A stretch of DNA of 20,319 nucleotides from a virus: the IMG/VR virus record IMGVR_UViG_3300020020_000179, positions 1 through 20,319 of that record; one strand, given 5' to 3'. Position 1 is the first letter of the stretch; every line of letters starts with the position of its first letter. Shown here piece after piece: positions 5,489 through 16,592 of the stretch. The position numbers and the translations under genes were made by a program. The notes beneath the pieces are model-generated. The model was not told the DNA's origin and did not search any database. It saw nothing but the letters and a program-made list of their open reading frames with translations.

Positions 5489-5747
5489 CGAGCCAGCTGT
5501 TAATCCTGACGAACCTTGCTCAATCTGTAGTGAAACCAGGGAGAACCATGGCGACAAGCATCACAAGTTCAACACCGAAGGTCATCTCATCCCATTGGAC
5601 CCTCCGCCGAAGCCTCGAGCGGAAGCTCCAGTTCATGTATCTGAAGCGATCAAAGCAGCCTCGTTCGCTACGCTGATGGAAGTCCTCGTGGAAAAGGATA
5701 TCCTCACTGCTAAGGATGTGATTCGGGTATTCGGAGGTAATGGCTAA
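5454..5747 (+). CDS. Small CxxC/His putative zinc-binding protein
   Basis: ATG codons occur at 5439, 5451 and 5454. AGGAGG at 5442-5447 sits 6-7 nt before 5454, so 5454 is preferred. The product (about 97 residues) starts with a Ser/Thr-rich stretch. It has CSICSETRENHGDKHHKF (two Cys and three His), a plausible zinc site, and a C-terminal helical part (ATLMEVLVEKDILTAKDVIR). The gene overlaps the acidic end of the upstream gene. Its TAA stop shares bases with the ATG of the JAMM gene, indicating coupling. No named family is recognised. Confidence 0.6.
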   Translation: MTSSSTSSSKSDEPAVNPDEPCSICSETRENHGDKHHKFNTEGHLIPLDPPPKPRAEAPVHVSEAIKAASFATLMEVLVEKDILTAKDVIRVFGGNG

Positions 5748-6097
5748 TGGACCTGCCACTGATCGAGGGCAGGCTCAAACTGTCGATGCTTGCGTTAGTC
5801 CGTGAAGCGGCACCTGATGAAGCGGTAGGCATCATATACAATGAAATGGTGTACCCCCTACGGAACATCTCGGACTCCCCCACTGACCATTTCGCCATGA
5901 GCCTAGCGGATCTTCGTGAACTAGTTCACACTCTTCAGATACACTTCGATTTGATCGACGACAACGTTTTCTTGTGGCATTCACATCCCGGTGGTGGTGT
6001 GGGGCCGTCTCGATTCGACATGACACACAAGACTCCACTGAAGCATCATCTCGTAGTAGCGCTAGTCGATAACGACCTAGTATCTACATGGTATTGA
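5747..6097 (+). CDS. Standalone JAB/MPN-domain (JAMM) metalloprotease
   Basis: ATG 5747 follows GGAGG with 9-nt spacing and overlaps the preceding TAA. The 116-residue product is a single JAMM domain. A conserved Glu is in DEAVGII (about residue 25), and the zinc signature HSHPGGGVGPSRFD matches HxH-x7-S-x2-D exactly (His78, His80, Ser88, Asp91). Family members cleave isopeptide or peptide bonds using zinc. In phages a JAB domain is best known from the lambda tail-tip protein K, fused to NlpC/P60; here it stands alone. It could act in tail assembly, or remove ubiquitin-like conjugates used by some bacterial defences; the sequence does not decide. The TGA stop lies inside the -35 box of the next promoter. 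Confidence 0.85.
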   Translation: MDLPLIEGRLKLSMLALVREAAPDEAVGIIYNEMVYPLRNISDSPTDHFAMSLADLRELVHTLQIHFDLIDDNVFLWHSHPGGGVGPSRFDMTHKTPLKHHLVVALVDNDLVSTWY

Positions 6098-6146: not shown

Positions 6147-6398
6147 ATGACAGGAACTACTCGCGACGAGGCTAGAGCTCAGATCGAGGGCGACCTTAAG
6201 CGGTGGAAGGCAGAGGGTATTGTAGATCCGATGATCTGCTCTTATACCGATGCCAATGCTGATACCATGCCTGATATCTGGGGTTTGGATGTTTTCGGTA
6301 AGATCGAACTTCGTCCCGATGCCACAATTGCAGACACAGTTAGTGTTTCAGATGGTACAGGCCTTGAGGATCCCAAGACGGAGGCTCCCAATGGTTGA
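6147..6398 (+). CDS. Hypothetical protein upstream of endolysin (83 aa)
   Basis: ATG 6147 is preceded by GAGGAAAGGCGAG. The 83-residue product is acidic, with an N-terminal helix (TRDEARAQIEGDLKRWKAEG) followed by a Pro/Asp-rich part (DADTMPDIWGLDVFGK-like order). No Cys, TM segment or recognised motif is seen. It is the first gene behind the promoter at 6094 and overlaps the endolysin start by 8 nt, so the two are likely translated together. Function unknown. Confidence 0.6.
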   Translation: MTGTTRDEARAQIEGDLKRWKAEGIVDPMICSYTDANADTMPDIWGLDVFGKIELRPDATIADTVSVSDGTGLEDPKTEAPNG

Positions 6399-7194
6399 TA
6401 TCGTCTACATCGATGGCGAGAAATTTACGCCTGAGATGGCCTACTGGTTTAACCTCATGGCTGCAGACTTCCTTCGGGATACCGGCTGTGAACTTCATGC
6501 TTCTAGTGCCCTGCGCTTTAGTTGGGAACAAGAGGCAATTTTTCGGGAGAGATATGTCCCGATCTGGGAAGTCAATGGCCGCAGGGTTTATGACTACCGA
6601 TGGTGGGATGGGGTTCAGTGGGCTCGCATCTCTTCGGCAGGTACGGTAGCAGTACCTCGTACCTCAAACCATGAATTCGAAGTTACTGGAGTTGGCGCAG
6701 TCGATGTCTATGACTCGGGCGGCGATGCTGGGGTTTCAGTTCGTGGTACTGCCCGATCCAATTGGATGGAACGATGGGCATCTGGTTACCACTTCGACAA
6801 TGAGGGTATGAGCTTCGGTGAGGCATGGCACAAGCGCTTCACTGGCAACCTCTTCGCAAGTCGGCCTGACTGGGCTGGCGGGGGAGCAGTTCCCCTACCA
6901 ATACAAAAGGAAGTTGAAGAAATGAGCGGTGTTCTTTACGGAATCAACAATGCGGATAGCCCAACGGCGCCGGGTAACTACTGGGCACTCGCAGGTACCA
7001 GTCCCGGTACTCCGGCAAACTGGCTTGAAATCTCAGACTCTGCCCTGGCAAATCAGTTGGCAGCAAACACGAAGAGTGGTAACTACATCTTCCTGAGTCG
7101 GGGTACTTGGGATCTCTGGAAGAAGGCATACCTCTCGCCGCTGTCCACGGATGAGATCGAGGCAGTACCCCCGGCTACGCCCCCAAAAGCCTGA
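6391..7194 (+). CDS. Endolysin, zero-frame product: M15-type peptidoglycan peptidase
   Basis: ATG 6391 is chosen over the in-frame ATG 6250 because GGAGG precedes it by 6 nt. The 267-residue product has an M15 (VanY / D-Ala-D-Ala carboxypeptidase or L-Ala-D-Glu endopeptidase type) domain at about residues 30-155. Probable zinc ligands are His94 in TSNHEF, Asp105 in GAVDVYD and His147 in EAWH; the spacing of the first pair is a few residues longer than the usual SxHxxGxAxD. A second segment from about residue 178 is Trp/Ala/Gly-rich, then a Pro-rich linker ends at TGA. No wall-binding domain is in this frame. The linker codons contain the slippery heptamer CCCAAAA, so a -1 shift would join it to the next reading frame. 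An internal ATG at 6922 with AAAGGAAG upstream may give a shorter product. Confidence 0.8.
   Translation: MVDIVYIDGEKFTPEMAYWFNLMAADFLRDTGCELHASSALRFSWEQEAIFRERYVPIWEVNGRRVYDYRWWDGVQWARISSAGTVAVPRTSNHEFEVTGVGAVDVYDSGGDAGVSVRGTARSNWMERWASGYHFDNEGMSFGEAWHKRFTGNLFASRPDWAGGGAVPLPIQKEVEEMSGVLYGINNADSPTAPGNYWALAGTSPGTPANWLEISDSALANQLAANTKSGNYIFLSRGTWDLWKKAYLSPLSTDEIEAVPPATPPKA
6922..6924 (+). promoter_or_regulatory. Possible internal translation start inside the endolysin
   Basis: An in-frame ATG begins MSGVLYGINNADSP, exactly where the M15 domain's basic/Pro linker ends. AAAAGGAAG (6905-6913) precedes it by about 9 nt. Initiation here would give an endolysin fragment lacking the peptidase, as known for some dual-start endolysins that make a separate wall-binding subunit. 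Confidence 0.35.
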
Positions 7195-7235
7195 ACCTTC
7201 CTGTCTACCCGGCTCCAGTAGAGCCGACAGGGGGG
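7182..7235 (+). promoter_or_regulatory. Programmed -1 ribosomal frameshift signal (slippery heptamer plus stem-loop)
   Basis: In the endolysin frame the codons are C|CCA|AAA (7182-7188), the canonical X XXY YYZ heptamer. The spacer 7189-7195 holds the TGA stop. A stem-loop follows: 7196-7204 pairs with 7227-7235 (two G-T wobbles), a 5-nt bulge at 7205-7209, then CGGCTC (7210-7215) pairs with GAGCCG (7221-7226) around a 5-nt loop. A 7-nt spacer is in the usual 5-9 nt range. After slippage, reading continues AAA-AGC-CTG-AAC into the frame ending at 8039. A natural or assembly one-base deletion in the nearby C runs is the main alternative. Confidence 0.7.
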
Positions 7236-8039
7236 TGGCCGACTACGGGTGGGAACAGCAGTTCAAGCTCCGACGAGAAGGTGCAGACCGAACTCAAGCG
7301 CTTGGGCTTCTACAACGGACCGATCGACGGTGACTTCGGTGCTAACTCGATCCGTGGTGTCTGGATGTATCAGCAGACTCGATGGCTCATGGAAGATGGC
7401 GACTGGGGTTATACCACCAACCAGTACGCATTCCCTCCTGAGGGGGCGGTTTTCTGTATCGACTTCTCGTTCAACCGTTTTGCCGGAGAGTGGCTTGCTC
7501 AGCGCGGAGTCAACGGTGCGGGGCGTTACTCGTATGGAGCGACGTACGACGGCGGCAAGACTGGCAAGGGCATCAACAAGGCCGAGTTCGACGACCTCAC
7601 CGCGCATGGTGTTCCGCCGTGGTATAGCTATGAGACCGATCACACTGACCCGATCAGTGGTTTCGAAACCGGAGTGCGCCATGCCAAGGACAATGCCAAG
7701 TGGCGAGAGCTGTACGGCTTGCCCCGGCAGATCACGTACTACAACTGGGACACTGACTACATTCCATCACAGCACCGTCAGCTTCTGCTCGATGGTCTAC
7801 GTGGCGCGATCAGCGTTGATGGTCCAGAGTGGGTCGGTCTGTATGGGGAGTATGACGCTATCAAGGATGCGTTCGACGCTGGTCTGATTGTATCTGGCTG
7901 GCAGACGTACGGGTGGTCCACGCATCCGGATACGAGGCTCATTCAATGGGATCCGCGCGCTAAGTACCGCCAGTGGTCAAACGCCCAGTGGGATAACATG
8001 GTAGACTTCTGCTGGAACATGACGGGAGTAGCAGTATGA
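7188..8039 (+). CDS. Endolysin, -1 frame part: peptidoglycan-binding domain and DUF1906-like glycosidase domain
   Basis: This frame is open from 7155 to TGA 8039. No ATG lies near its start; GTG 7281 is the first conventional start, but it has no good ribosome-binding site and would begin inside a domain. The upstream codons read as a Pro/Gly/Ser linker (VYPAPVEPTGGWPTTGGNSS), continuing the Pro-rich end of the peptidase frame. Next comes a PG_binding_1-like motif (KVQTELKRLGFYNGPIDGDF), then about 190 residues resembling DUF1906 / Rv2525c-like GH25-type domains (FCIDFSFNRFAGEW, GKGINKAEFDDLTAHGVPPW, SYETDH). If fused by frameshift the full endolysin is about 549 residues: M15, linker, wall-binding, glycosidase-like. 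Sugar hydrolysis is inferred from family likeness. Confidence 0.75.
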   Translation, partial: SLNLPVYPAPVEPTGGWPTTGGNSSSSSDEKVQTELKRLGFYNGPIDGDFGANSIRGVWMYQQTRWLMEDGDWGYTTNQYAFPPEGAVFCIDFSFNRFAGEWLAQRGVNGAGRYSYGATYDGGKTGKGINKAEFDDLTAHGVPPWYSYETDHTDPISGFETGVRHAKDNAKWRELYGLPRQITYYNWDTDYIPSQHRQLLLDGLRGAISVDGPEWVGLYGEYDAIKDAFDAGLIVSGWQTYGWSTHPDTRLIQWDPRAKYRQWSNAQWDNMVDFCWNMTGVAV

Positions 8040-11190: not shown

Positions 11191-14100
11191 ATGCCAGCCG
11201 CACTCGTAACGTCGTTCACCGCGCAGGATAAAACACCGGGGACATCGTTCACTGTACTGGGGACCGCAGGTCTTAGTGTTGCTGCTCGAGATAAGATTGT
11301 TCTTACCATCACCTACGACAATCTGTCTACGTCAACGCCCAATATTACAGCCATCGATCGTGTTGGCGGCGGTGATCTGCTCCTAACCTGGAACATGATC
11401 CGCAATCAGAACTCGCCTCAAGCAGCAGCGGCAGCCGGTGTTCGCACCGAGATGTGGTATGCCGATGTGCTCTCCGCAGGCACCGTTTCAATCGTTGTGA
11501 CTCTGAGCGCGTCAGTGGCTGCGAAGGCCGCGGTTGGCATGGTGTTTAGTAGTCTTAATACAAGTATTTCAGTTGCAGGTAGTGCCGTTAGTTCTGCTAC
11601 TACTACTGGTGTCACAGTCCCAGCAACGGATATGTGGGTTCATGGCGGAGGCAGTGAACAAAATACCGCAATCAGTTTTACTCCTGCCGCTGGTTCAGGA
11701 GGATCAACTGCCCCAGTAACTCAGTTCACTACCGGTGGTAGTGGTGTAACTAACGCTTCGGCAGGTCAGCACTATTCACTGCAAGGTACTGGTGTCAGTG
11801 TAACATTCGGGATGACTGGTACTGATGGTGGCCACATTATTGCCCGGTTCATCATTAATAACTCTTTGCTTACTCAGGCGGCATATGGTTTCTATGATGA
11901 TGGTACTGCGGCTGCTGCCACTCTACTTGCTACACAGGATACCGCTCCCACGGTAGATACCTCCGGCGGAGATGTGAATCTTACACTCCGGGTGAGATTG
12001 CAAGAGACTGGTGCTTGTGCCGTCTCGGGTGTTGATGATTTCCAGTTGCAGTGGGAAAAGAACAACAGTGGAACGTGGACTGATGTCACCGTCGGTGGAG
12101 GCACTGTTGGCGCTTATAGTAACCCTAACACGACTGAGGGTGCAAGTATTACTGCTCGTCTCACTGGAGGAAGCGGTTCTGCTGGTCTTGGTAGGGTTGG
12201 TGAAACTGGTGTGGCTTTGGATAGGAGCCTGGTAGCCAGCGGTTACATGGAACTGCTTTACACGCTGAAGCTAGTCGCCGCGAACCTCGCCCCCAGTGAT
12301 GTACTTAAGTTTAGGGTACTCTGGAATAATGTAACTCTGGGAATGACTTACACTCAGGTACCAACGCTCAATATTGCCGCTGGTGGTGCTACCACTCATC
12401 AGGCCTCAGTTTCAATTCCGATTACTTCTGCAGTAACCGCGACCGCCACCAAAATTACGCCAGCTAGTGTAACTGTTGCAGTGACCTCAGCAGTTACTGC
12501 CGCTGGTGGTCTTGTTTCTCAAGTTTCTGCAACCACAGCAATTGTATCTACTGTTACTGCCGCTGCTGTTAAAGTTCTACCTGCTTCAGTATCTACAGCC
12601 ATCACTTCTGGAGTAACCGCTGCTGCGAAGCTTGTAGCTCAAGGATCAGTAACCACTGCAATTACTTCTGCCATTACTGCGTCGGCTATAAGTATCTTCT
12701 CAGGATCAACAACAAGTGCAATTGTATCCGCACTAACAGCATCAGCCATTGGCATCTTCTCCGGTGCTGCAACGAGTGCGGTTGTTTCTGCAGTAACTGC
12801 TGATGCCACTCTCGTTCCTGGAGGAGGCGGCGGAACCACTCACTCGGCAAGTGTTGATATTACCATCACCTCAGGTGTGGGACAAGATGAAGGTTGGCCT
12901 CCAGACTGGCCGCCCGATTGGCCTAGTAGTGGCGGTATACCAGCAACTGTTATTAAACTGGCAAGTGTCACTACTGCCATCGTTTCTGCCGTTACTGCAG
13001 AGGGTGAAGTCATAACTGGCTTTGTCACTCACCAAGCTTCTGCCTCAATCAATATTGTCTCTCAGGTAACCATTGCCGCTTCAGCTCGTTTGAGTGTTTC
13101 GGTTTCCACACCGATAGTCTCGGCAGTTTCATCGCCTTCAGCTCTTCTGTTGAAGATCGCCTCGGTAAGCACAGCAGTTGTCTCGGCAATGACCGCGACT
13201 GCCCGGCTGGTTGCAACGGGGGTTGTGACGACAGCGATTGTTTCAACAACTCCCGCTCCTAGTGGTATAGTTATTCCTGGGCCTGCGTCGGTTACGATAA
13301 CCATTCAGTCGAATACGCCTGCGCCTGCTAGCACGAGGGTAGTATCTGCATCAGTAGCCTTCGCGATTATTTCGGCAACAACTGCTCCGAGTGCCAAGGG
13401 TATCTTCGCTGGTGCGGCAACGATCGCCATTGTCTCTACGACTCCTTCGCCTACCTCACGAGTAATCAAGGTTGCTTCAGTATCAACTGCTATTGTTTCT
13501 GCAGTTACTGCCAATGCTCGATCGATTCTGCAGGTCAGTGCTCCTGCCGTTAACATCGTTTCAACTTTTGCTGCTGAGCCAAGTATTCCCGGGCAAACTT
13601 CAGTGATTATGCCGATTGTTTCGACTTTCTCGGCAACGGCCATTGTTATCCGCCCCGCTAGTGTCTCCATTCCTATCACTTCATCGATGAGTGCGAATGC
13701 GAGCGCGAAGTTCGCGGCATCTGCTACTACGGCAATTGTATCGACGACTTCAGCAGTGGCAACGCGAGTTTCATTTGGTTCTGTCACGACCGCCATTATA
13801 TCGACCACTGCTACACCTAGCGCTAAAGGCATCTTTGCTGGGGCTACTACAATTGCCATTGTATCTACCTTTAGTGTCACCCTTACTGCTCCTCAATCAG
13901 CCAATGTTGAGTTCTTCATTCTCTCTGGTGCCAGTGCAGATGCAAGAAAGGTTACTTCAGCTTCAGTAGTGACAGCCGTTATATCGACGACTGCAGCTTC
14001 TGTTCTTCGAATCTCGCCTGTCTCGGCAACGACTAGTATTGTTTCTACAACCTCGGCCGCAGGTGTTCGAGCTGCCCAGGCCTCGGTTGTAACACCTATC

Positions 14101-14439
14101 AACTCGACCTTCGTTGCTCCGGCTCAAGCAGTTCTCCAGGCTAGTGGTATCATACCCATTGTATCGGGCACGCTTGCAGATGCAACACTTGCCGCAATGG
14201 CTTCTGTAGTAATTCCGATCATTTCAACAGTCTATGTTGAAGGATCAACTGAAGATGTCATTCCGAGGCTTCACCCGACGATCCTTGAGGAACTTACTCA
14301 GGCAGTTTTGCTTGGTGAACTTAACTCGAGTTCGACCTTGACTGATCTCTCAACATCGATTGGCCTAGAGGCATTGACGTACAAGACCGCAGTCGATGAT
14401 GTAGTAGGACCTTGGAAGCTGGAGGATGTGGTGCAATGA
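11191..14439 (+). CDS. Large repeat-containing tail fibre / minor tail protein (1082 aa)
   Basis: ATG 11191 has GAAGGGCGG about 10 nt upstream. Residues 1-225 look like a Ser/Thr/Gly/Ala-rich beta-sandwich. Residues about 228-400 contain a second beta domain (QAAYGFYDDGT, DDFQLQWEKNNSGTW) of a kind common in actinophage tail fibres. Residues 405 to about 1020 consist of 29 tandem imperfect repeats of about 20 residues, consensus like ASVSTAIVSAVTA plus a variable tail. The pattern is alternating small/hydrophobic residues with no charge, as in elongated beta-solenoid or fibre shafts. Repeat 8 carries an inserted WPPDWPPDWP segment. The last 60 residues are acidic and helical (PRLHPTILEELTQAVLLGEL). 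Probable receptor-binding fibre, with the repeats as spacer. Minus-strand open frames over this region are shadows of the repeats. Confidence 0.75.
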   Translation: MPAALVTSFTAQDKTPGTSFTVLGTAGLSVAARDKIVLTITYDNLSTSTPNITAIDRVGGGDLLLTWNMIRNQNSPQAAAAAGVRTEMWYADVLSAGTVSIVVTLSASVAAKAAVGMVFSSLNTSISVAGSAVSSATTTGVTVPATDMWVHGGGSEQNTAISFTPAAGSGGSTAPVTQFTTGGSGVTNASAGQHYSLQGTGVSVTFGMTGTDGGHIIARFIINNSLLTQAAYGFYDDGTAAAATLLATQDTAPTVDTSGGDVNLTLRVRLQETGACAVSGVDDFQLQWEKNNSGTWTDVTVGGGTVGAYSNPNTTEGASITARLTGGSGSAGLGRVGETGVALDRSLVASGYMELLYTLKLVAANLAPSDVLKFRVLWNNVTLGMTYTQVPTLNIAAGGATTHQASVSIPITSAVTATATKITPASVTVAVTSAVTAAGGLVSQVSATTAIVSTVTAAAVKVLPASVSTAITSGVTAAAKLVAQGSVTTAITSAITASAISIFSGSTTSAIVSALTASAIGIFSGAATSAVVSAVTADATLVPGGGGGTTHSASVDITITSGVGQDEGWPPDWPPDWPSSGGIPATVIKLASVTTAIVSAVTAEGEVITGFVTHQASASINIVSQVTIAASARLSVSVSTPIVSAVSSPSALLLKIASVSTAVVSAMTATARLVATGVVTTAIVSTTPAPSGIVIPGPASVTITIQSNTPAPASTRVVSASVAFAIISATTAPSAKGIFAGAATIAIVSTTPSPTSRVIKVASVSTAIVSAVTANARSILQVSAPAVNIVSTFAAEPSIPGQTSVIMPIVSTFSATAIVIRPASVSIPITSSMSANASAKFAASATTAIVSTTSAVATRVSFGSVTTAIISTTATPSAKGIFAGATTIAIVSTFSVTLTAPQSANVEFFILSGASADARKVTSASVVTAVISTTAASVLRISPVSATTSIVSTTSAAGVRAAQASVVTPINSTFVAPAQAVLQASGIIPIVSGTLADATLAAMASVVIPIISTVYVEGSTEDVIPRLHPTILEELTQAVLLGELNSSSTLTDLSTSIGLEALTYKTAVDDVVGPWKLEDVVQ
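12403..14250 (+). repeat. 29 tandem degenerate ~60-bp repeats encoding fibre shaft
   Basis: The first unit starts at GCC 12403 and the last at GCT 14200. Each unit codes about 20 residues starting ASV, GSV, VSA or GAA and containing an Ile/Val-Val/Ile-Ser core. Units 15-16 and 22-23 are near duplicates of each other at protein level (PSAKGIFAGA then TIAIVST), and units 5-7 share SIFSG/GIFSG joins, suggesting duplication by recombination. DNA similarity between most units is low, so the array is old or under drift. Confidence 0.8.
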
Positions 14440-15185: not shown

Positions 15186-16592
15186 ATGGCACATGGGTCA
15201 ATCCCTCTGCTGGGTAATGGCCGCGTGTTCCGCAAAGATAAGTGGTTCGAGGCAACAGGGTATCGCCCTCACCCGGGGCAAAGCATGGTGCATTACGATA
15301 ACACTCGTCACCGTGTGCTCTGTAATGGACGACGCTGGGGTAAGACTCTCTTCGGTGGCAAGGAGATTGAGACTACGGCTTTCGTAAAGAACTACCTCAG
15401 TGAGCCCATGATGGGCTGGATTATTGGTCCGAATTATGGTGATGCGGAAAAAGAATTCCGAGTCATCTACAATACTTTTAAGGCACTCGGTATCGACACT
15501 CTGTCAAACAAGTTCATCAAGAACGCCGAGAATGGGAACATGAAGATCGAGACCAACTGGGGATGGTCTGTTGAATGTCGATCTGCACAACACCCTGATA
15601 GCCTCGTCGGTGAGGGTCTCGACTTCATCCTGATGGCTGAGGCTGGTCGACACAGTAAGAAAACATTCACTGAGTACGTACGACCTGCTCTGTCTGATAA
15701 GCGCGGGTTCTCAATGATGAGTGGAGTTCCTGAGGATGCAAACGATACTAACCTGCTCTACTGGGCATATATGCGAGGACAAGAGCCCCTCTTTACACAA
15801 TGGCAGTCCTGGCAACTACCCTCCTGGACCAACACTCACGTTTTCCCAGGCGGAAGAAATGATCCGGAGATTGTGGAAGCAGCCTCCGATCTTACCGACG
15901 ACGAATTCCGCCGGCAGTACGGGGGCGAATTTGTTCTAAAGCGTGGTCGCGTCATGAAGGAGTGGGATGATGACAAACACGTTGTGGACGTTCACTACCG
16001 CCGTGATTGGCCTCTGTTCGCAGCGGTTGACTTCGGGTACACGAACGACTGGGTATGGCTTTGGATCCAACTTGATCCAATCGATAACCGTACCTACGTT
16101 ATCGGTGAGAAGCGATGGAAGTTCACAGATACTGAGATGATCGCCAAGGAGATGGCACAAAGTGAACTCATCGGCAATTGCCGAGCCATCTACGTTGATC
16201 CCTCAAGTCCTGACGACGCAGCCATTCTTCGTCGACACTTGGGGGTTCCCACACGAGCTAACACAGGTGGGGAAATTAAGCTTCGACTCCAGCTCATTCG
16301 TTCGGCGCTGAAGACTCGACCTGAGTCTTTGCCTGAGGATCACCCAGAGCGTCTGCCTAACCTTATGGTTGATCGCTCCTGTGATCGCCTCATCTGGGAA
16401 ATGCGCGAGGGTTATCGCTGGCCCGAGAATAAGAACGACAGTAAGAACTCCAGTGAAATTCCGATGGATGATAACAACCATGGACCGGAAGCGCTTGGGC
16501 GGTTCTATAAGGGCCACATGGAGAGTCTGTCCACGGTTGGTAGTAGAATTAGTCGGCAGGGATCGATTCGAGTTAGGAAGAGAGCAGCATGA
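15186..16592 (+). CDS. Terminase large subunit
   Basis: ATG 15186 follows GAGGGGTCGAGAAT. The 468-residue product is the packaging motor and nuclease. The N-terminal ATPase has Walker A-like GRRWGKT (48-54, Lys53, Thr54) and a Walker B-like stretch LDFILMAE (145-152), with Glu152 as catalytic carboxylate after Ala instead of the common Asp-Glu pair. The C-terminal RNase H-like nuclease has Asp282 (AAVDFGYTND) and Asp338 (YVDPSS) as metal-binding candidates. A final conserved motif NHGPEALGRF has Glu435 where Asp is usual. The length is typical. TerL docks on the portal encoded next door (ATGA overlap), cuts concatemers and pumps DNA using ATP. Confidence 0.9.
   Translation: MAHGSIPLLGNGRVFRKDKWFEATGYRPHPGQSMVHYDNTRHRVLCNGRRWGKTLFGGKEIETTAFVKNYLSEPMMGWIIGPNYGDAEKEFRVIYNTFKALGIDTLSNKFIKNAENGNMKIETNWGWSVECRSAQHPDSLVGEGLDFILMAEAGRHSKKTFTEYVRPALSDKRGFSMMSGVPEDANDTNLLYWAYMRGQEPLFTQWQSWQLPSWTNTHVFPGGRNDPEIVEAASDLTDDEFRRQYGGEFVLKRGRVMKEWDDDKHVVDVHYRRDWPLFAAVDFGYTNDWVWLWIQLDPIDNRTYVIGEKRWKFTDTEMIAKEMAQSELIGNCRAIYVDPSSPDDAAILRRHLGVPTRANTGGEIKLRLQLIRSALKTRPESLPEDHPERLPNLMVDRSCDRLIWEMREGYRWPENKNDSKNSSEIPMDDNNHGPEALGRFYKGHMESLSTVGSRISRQGSIRVRKRAA

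Follow-up and report, generated by a model that had tools for sequence, protein, structure and literature searches.

The stretch of DNA analysed here (the window) is the whole of IMGVR_UViG_3300020020_000179, a linear viral record of 20,319 bases from a soil-actinobacterium phage, given as one strand. Its terminase gene (15186-16592) groups it with Microbacterium phages Huwbert and Triscuit, Curtobacterium phage Shrew and several uncultivated IMG/VR contigs. The lysin gene is located between a conserved MPN-like gene (5747-6097) and genes for small membrane proteins, a position at which lysins have been exchanged wholesale in this phage group, with M15, M23 and amidase-like versions occurring at one place. 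In the region from the MPN-like gene to the terminase gene, otherwise collinear phages (L004, L006, L007 and L012-L014) carried unrelated lysins that were amidase-like, M23 or other M15 types. The small MPN/JAB-like gene, which possesses a WHSHPGG..GPSR.D motif and lies directly 5' of the swappable lysin throughout the group, showed 31-54 % identity across many contigs; its role is unknown. Between the lysis genes and the terminase gene there is also a 1082-aa ORF (11191-14439) with many imperfect ASVxxAIVSxVTAxA-type repeats, which by appearance resembles a surface or tail protein built of repeats.

The lysin is encoded in two overlapping frames (Table 1). The zero frame comprises an M15/VanY-like peptidase (about residues 7-154), an acidic linker, a small C-terminal module and a Pro-rich tail that continues to the stop, its 3' end reading ACG CCC CCA AAA GCC TGA. 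The match of this frame to Pfam VanY fell just below the cut-off of 25 (23.3 bits, E 6e-5); the protein was 37-57 % identical to annotated Microbacterium phage endolysins (232 records), with which the HE, D and E.WH motifs of the peptidase were conserved (activity unknown). The original prediction described the short product as having catalysis but no wall binding, which is not supported as stated, as the small module, of unknown role, occupies the position of a binding module. A leave-one-out HMM of the small C-terminal modules of the window, L233 (a second phage, described below), L133, Leaf and Camille missed those of the window and L233. Homology of these modules is not claimed; they are alike in position only.

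Table 1. Features of the lysin locus, in window coordinates
Feature	Position	Strand	Description or basis
Zero-frame lysin ORF	6391..7194	+	ATG 6391, TGA 7192-7194, 267 aa; translation
Possible internal ribosome-binding site AAGGAAG (6907-6913) and ATG (6922-6924)	6907..6924	+	5-nt SD match, small-module start
-1 frame ORF	7155..8039	+	Linker, PG_binding_1, Rv2525c/GH25-like domain
Slippery heptamer C CCA AAA	7182..7188	+	X XXY YYZ phase of the zero frame; same place in L233
Pro/Ser/Gly/Thr linker SLNLPVYPAPVEPTGGWPTTGGNSSSSSD	7188..7274	+	-1 frame; codon log-odds favour the -1 frame
Zero-frame stop TGA	7192..7194	+	One codon past the heptamer; L233 has TAG there
Stimulatory hairpin (predicted)	7195..7236	+	11 + 5 bp, 5-nt bulge; 6-7 nt past the heptamer
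PG_binding_1 domain	7275..7418	+	Pfam PF01471, E 1e-6, above cut-off
Rv2525c-like glycoside-hydrolase-like domain (PF08924, formerly DUF1906)	7440..8036	+	Foldseek, AlphaFold, homologues

The -1 frame opens only at 7155, after a stop codon at 7152, and runs to 8039. It had been described as lacking a good start, and this was borne out: no ATG, GTG or TTG was found in it from 7155 to the GTG at 7281, the only candidate being a CTG at 7191. The Pro/Ser/Gly linker predicted across the join was likewise present, the -1 frame linker meeting the Pro-rich tail of the zero frame, and its WPT..G motif reappears in the -1 frame of L233 and in the fused lysin L206. The sequence of the window's C-terminal domain alone had no Pfam match at E 0.1, its homologues matching PF08924. 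A model of the C-half obtained by AlphaFold with 35 homologues reached a pLDDT of 90 (without an alignment the value was 36, which was of no use); the best Foldseek match of this model was the Rv2525c crystal structure (4pmn, E 3e-15), followed by GH25 lysozymes. The earlier description of this half as wall-binding and DUF1906-like thus holds for its second term, given the PF08924 matches of the homologues, but the half is not purely wall-binding, since it combines PG_binding_1 with a GH25-like fold. Every residue invariant in the 35 homologues, D and E included, was retained in the -1 frame of the window, and for this reason the C-half looks functional; catalysis has not been shown. Joined by slippage, the two frames would encode 266 + 283 = 549 residues, in agreement with the fusion of about 549 residues that had been forecast, with 267 aa for the short form.

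At the junction, all of the elements attributed to it by the original prediction were observed, with the M15 frame ending at the TGA and C CCA AAA lying in phase before it. In-frame heptamers of the strict form (XXX and then AAA or TTT) are scarce in the window genes, with only four, CCCAAAA included, per 6309 codon positions, and the chance of finding one in the 12-codon overlap is about 0.6-0.8 %. Codon log-odds were +8.7 for the zero frame (7101-7188) and +3.9 (7189-7281) and +10.7 (7282-7400) for the -1 frame, so that the observed switch of frame in codon usage coincides with the heptamer. The hairpin downstream pairs 7195-7205 with 7226-7236 and 7211-7215 with 7221-7225, with an energy of about -27 kcal/mol. 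The stem-loop originally placed at 7196-7235 is real, except that its stem begins one base earlier. The spacer is 6-7 nt. The segment 7189-7248 folds at -28 kcal/mol (z = -2.4; 4 of 200 shuffles were equally good), the 45-nt fold at 7193-7194 (-24.8) is within the best 0.03 % of all window positions, and the hairpin ranks in the strongest 0.03-0.2 % of the window. A caveat is that the hairpin competes with another fold when upstream bases are included, the longer piece 7160-7290 adopting an alternative pairing that was not significant (z -0.87). No strong SD-like stretch was present 5' of the heptamer in the window. The window meets the criteria of an in-phase heptamer, a coding -1 overlap without a start codon and a spaced 3' structure.

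A further criterion of programmed -1 frameshifting, conservation of the signal in related genes, is met by L233 (IMGVR_UViG_2838243717_000001). Here the N-half is an M23 peptidase (PF01551) with a small module, ending in LPPKA and a stop, and the -1 frame is open from 2860 on and comprises a Pro/Glu linker followed by PG_binding_1 and PF08924. The two phages share C CCA AAA and GCN-stop as well as the 12-mer GCCCCCAAAAGC, which is followed in L233 by G-TAG. The 100 nt past the heptamer of L233 reach -56.7 kcal/mol on folding (z = -6.64), which 0 of 200 shuffles equalled, the stem beginning 7 nt past the heptamer, and an SD-like stretch AAGGAGGT lies 7 nt 5' of CCCAAAA with no start codon nearby. 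An ATG occurs at 2971, just 5' of the PG_binding domain, and the bases preceding it are the 3' arm of the hairpin. The C-halves of L233 and the window are only 44 % identical and their N-domains are unrelated, and on these sequence comparisons an assembly error shared by both appears very unlikely. The support from conservation is nevertheless thin, as the signal was observed in two members, most homologues being fused; it could be checked over one deep divergence only, no close relative of the window lysin having been found.

Relatives were recovered via alignments of the terminase, a neighbouring gene (A1) and the C-half (A3, A5 and A6); scanning IMG/VR for patterns of a single protein, whichever half was used, gave no close relative. 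The closest full-length relatives (L021, L136, L139 and L323) carry an M15 peptidase and the same end domains in one continuous frame, with about 33-42 % identity in the C-half and other linkers, and L205, L206 and L207 (the last being the same lysin as L137) are continuous with an M23 peptidase. The alignment of relatives called for by the original prediction showed the signal kept in L233, with the frames split, and a single continuous frame without the heptamer-stop junction, which that prediction had named as refuting, in the four M15 relatives. In L133-L135 (L133:323-1959, L134:3231-4912 and L135:3183-4915), the M15 peptidase with its small module stops at TGATG, the ATG of which starts a PG_binding-glycosidase gene. 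By comparison with the continuous relatives, which carry both, the two lysin halves belong to one enzyme; the continuity of those genes does not show that the window is broken. Since most homologues are fused in one frame, lysins of this type can do without the shift. In 357 loci (3.1 Mb in total, partly overlapping), strict in-phase heptamers were sought that had a stop soon after them and a long -1 frame lacking a start; only the window and L233 gave coding pairs with the full signature. Matches in L097 (own ATG, non-coding upstream frame) and L298 (non-coding) were rejected, and one in L130 (AAAGGGT) was set aside because its composition looked non-coding, by eye only. The C-half was present in three of 298 Microbacterium genomes, fused in every case; a family-wide draw of 400 genomes yielded one carrier, already among these three, and six further Microbacterium phage lysins had no heptamer in the overlap at their ends.

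Programmed -1 ribosomal frameshifting, as originally proposed, remains the best-supported reading of the lysin gene, L233 sharing the heptamer, stop position, frame relation, spacer and a highly significant structure. We put its probability at roughly 0.87, on sequence evidence and without protein, ribosome-profiling or reporter data. Most ribosomes would translate the zero frame to its stop and release the M15 peptidase with its small C-terminal module. A fraction, with the hairpin at the mRNA entrance, would re-pair one base back on the heptamer, P-site pairing moving from CCA to CCC and A-site pairing from AAA to AAA. These ribosomes would go on to add the linker, the domain that binds peptidoglycan and another enzyme domain, which is Rv2525c/GH25-like. 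With two products arising from partial slippage, the signal would determine how much of the small lysin with one enzyme is made relative to the large, wall-anchored lysin with two. The shift itself, the fraction of ribosomes that undergo it and any benefit to the phage are inferred.

The same arrangement would result if a continuous lysin gene had lost one base in a homopolymer tract, through an error of sequencing or assembly or a real inactivating mutation. The junction is a C5A4 tract, the coverage and platform of the window are unknown, and the same end domains are continuous in the four M15 relatives. This account is nonetheless unlikely, as L233, which is another phage and has another N-domain, shows an identical break (the same tract, next codon and stop), and structures lie at a stimulatory distance in both, that of L233 being highly improbable by chance (z = -6.6). 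It also sits poorly with the retention of all of the family-invariant residues in the -1 frame and with the structural genes of the window, which are unbroken along a 5.6-kb alignment to L002 (80 %). Slippage of the polymerase on the C5A4 tract could in principle supply mRNAs in both frames, but it would leave the exact-phase heptamer and the spaced hairpin as a coincidence. Known cases of transcriptional slippage require longer homopolymers, about 8-9 A or T, than this tract offers, and the idea is scarcely tenable.

Separate translation of two genes, with the PG_binding-glycosidase re-initiated at CTG 7191, which overlaps the stop, or at GTG 7281, has a precedent in the TGATG split of L133-L135, and the ATG at 2971 makes it a real option for L233. 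In the window, no ATG, GTG or TTG precedes 7281, and the GTG there falls within the first helix of the PG_binding domain and lacks a good SD. The 30-residue linker 5' of 7281 has the codon bias of a coding -1 frame and is similar to inter-domain linkers. As a coupled start, CTG 7191 was rejected, being absent from L233, where the -1 frame reads AGC GTA GAG; in L233, moreover, the 3' arm of the hairpin occupies the sequence just 5' of ATG 2971. A canonical heptamer would also remain unexplained, and re-initiation was accordingly given even less weight than the loss of a base.

Within the zero frame, a possible internal start lies at the boundary of the small module (Table 1). Equivalent sites with an SD-like sequence and an ATG occur in most related lysins (L008:3020, L010:3035, L133:809, L233:2618 and L358-L363), some with AAGGAGG; a 5-7 nt SD match was found at the module boundary in nine of 10 related Microbacterium phage lysins, compared with seven of 106 internal ATGs in the window genes. 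An internal translation start is thus probable in many actinophage M15 lysins and apparently widespread, with expression unknown; it stays a prediction because acidic linkers encoded by GAGGAGGA can mimic SD sites. Combined with the -1 shift, it might yield up to four polypeptides (M15-module, M15-module-PG_binding-glycosidase, module alone and module-PG_binding-glycosidase), and related actinophages might alternate among three wirings of the two halves (fused frame, TGATG stop-start and frameshift) as a means of setting enzyme stoichiometry, a proposal that is tentative and on present evidence somewhat doubtful.

If programmed frameshifting of the lysin gene is confirmed, it would control the amount of a second catalytic domain, beside the known internal starts. 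The occurrence of the same halves as a fusion or a stop-start pair in relatives provides a natural experiment on why two lysin forms are made. There is also a warning for annotation, in that such lysins are called truncated enzymes or broken genes and the second half is missed.

Most known cases of frameshifting in dsDNA phages concern tail and capsid genes. In E. coli the motif C_CC.A_AA.A has been measured and is shifty, belonging to the efficient V_VV.A_AA.R class, and SD-like sequences and 3' structures are known -1 stimulators (PMC4066793). By analogy, the predicted signal of L233 has the same elements as this known class of bacterial -1 signals (PMC4066793). The signals of IS3/IS911 transposases are similar in their X_XXZ_ZZN motif, 3' hairpin and optional upstream SD-like stretch, but serve another gene and another purpose (PMC4066793). 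Phage tail assembly chaperones of the lambda G/T type are -1 frameshifted (Xu, Hendrix and Duda 2004, cited in PMC5506516) and resemble the window in having a heptamer towards the end of the first frame, a start-less -1 frame and a pair of products that share their N-terminus and are made at a fixed ratio. The products predicted for the window differ in being peptidoglycan hydrolases, the extension adding a wall-binding and an enzyme domain.

The original prediction held that frameshifting was not established for endolysins of this architecture, and no report of one was found in the open-licence literature, which does not prove absence. Lysins are, however, listed among the genes known to contain a frameshift (PMC10885494), and a lactococcal lysin reported in 1994, encoded by two genes that overlap, is cited there as frameshifted; to judge from that citation alone, it shares overlapping frames with the window and belongs to a different phage group. 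The continuous actinophage lysins (four with M15, and L205-L207) have the same end domains in the same order, and differ in their single frame, extra PG_binding repeats and lack of a heptamer-stop junction. Two-polypeptide endolysins with an internal in-frame start (Ms6 LysA, PMC3111421; CTP1L, PMC4777826; phi2638A, PMC12203907; survey, PMC9430671) make more than one polypeptide from one gene, as is predicted for the window, and an SD-like sequence and an ATG precede the C-terminal module in the window and related lysins as well; if the internal start is real, the window gene also joins this group (PMC3111421, PMC4777826, PMC9430671). The products of those endolysins have a common C-terminus and different N-termini, whereas those of the predicted frameshift would have a common N-terminus and different C-termini.
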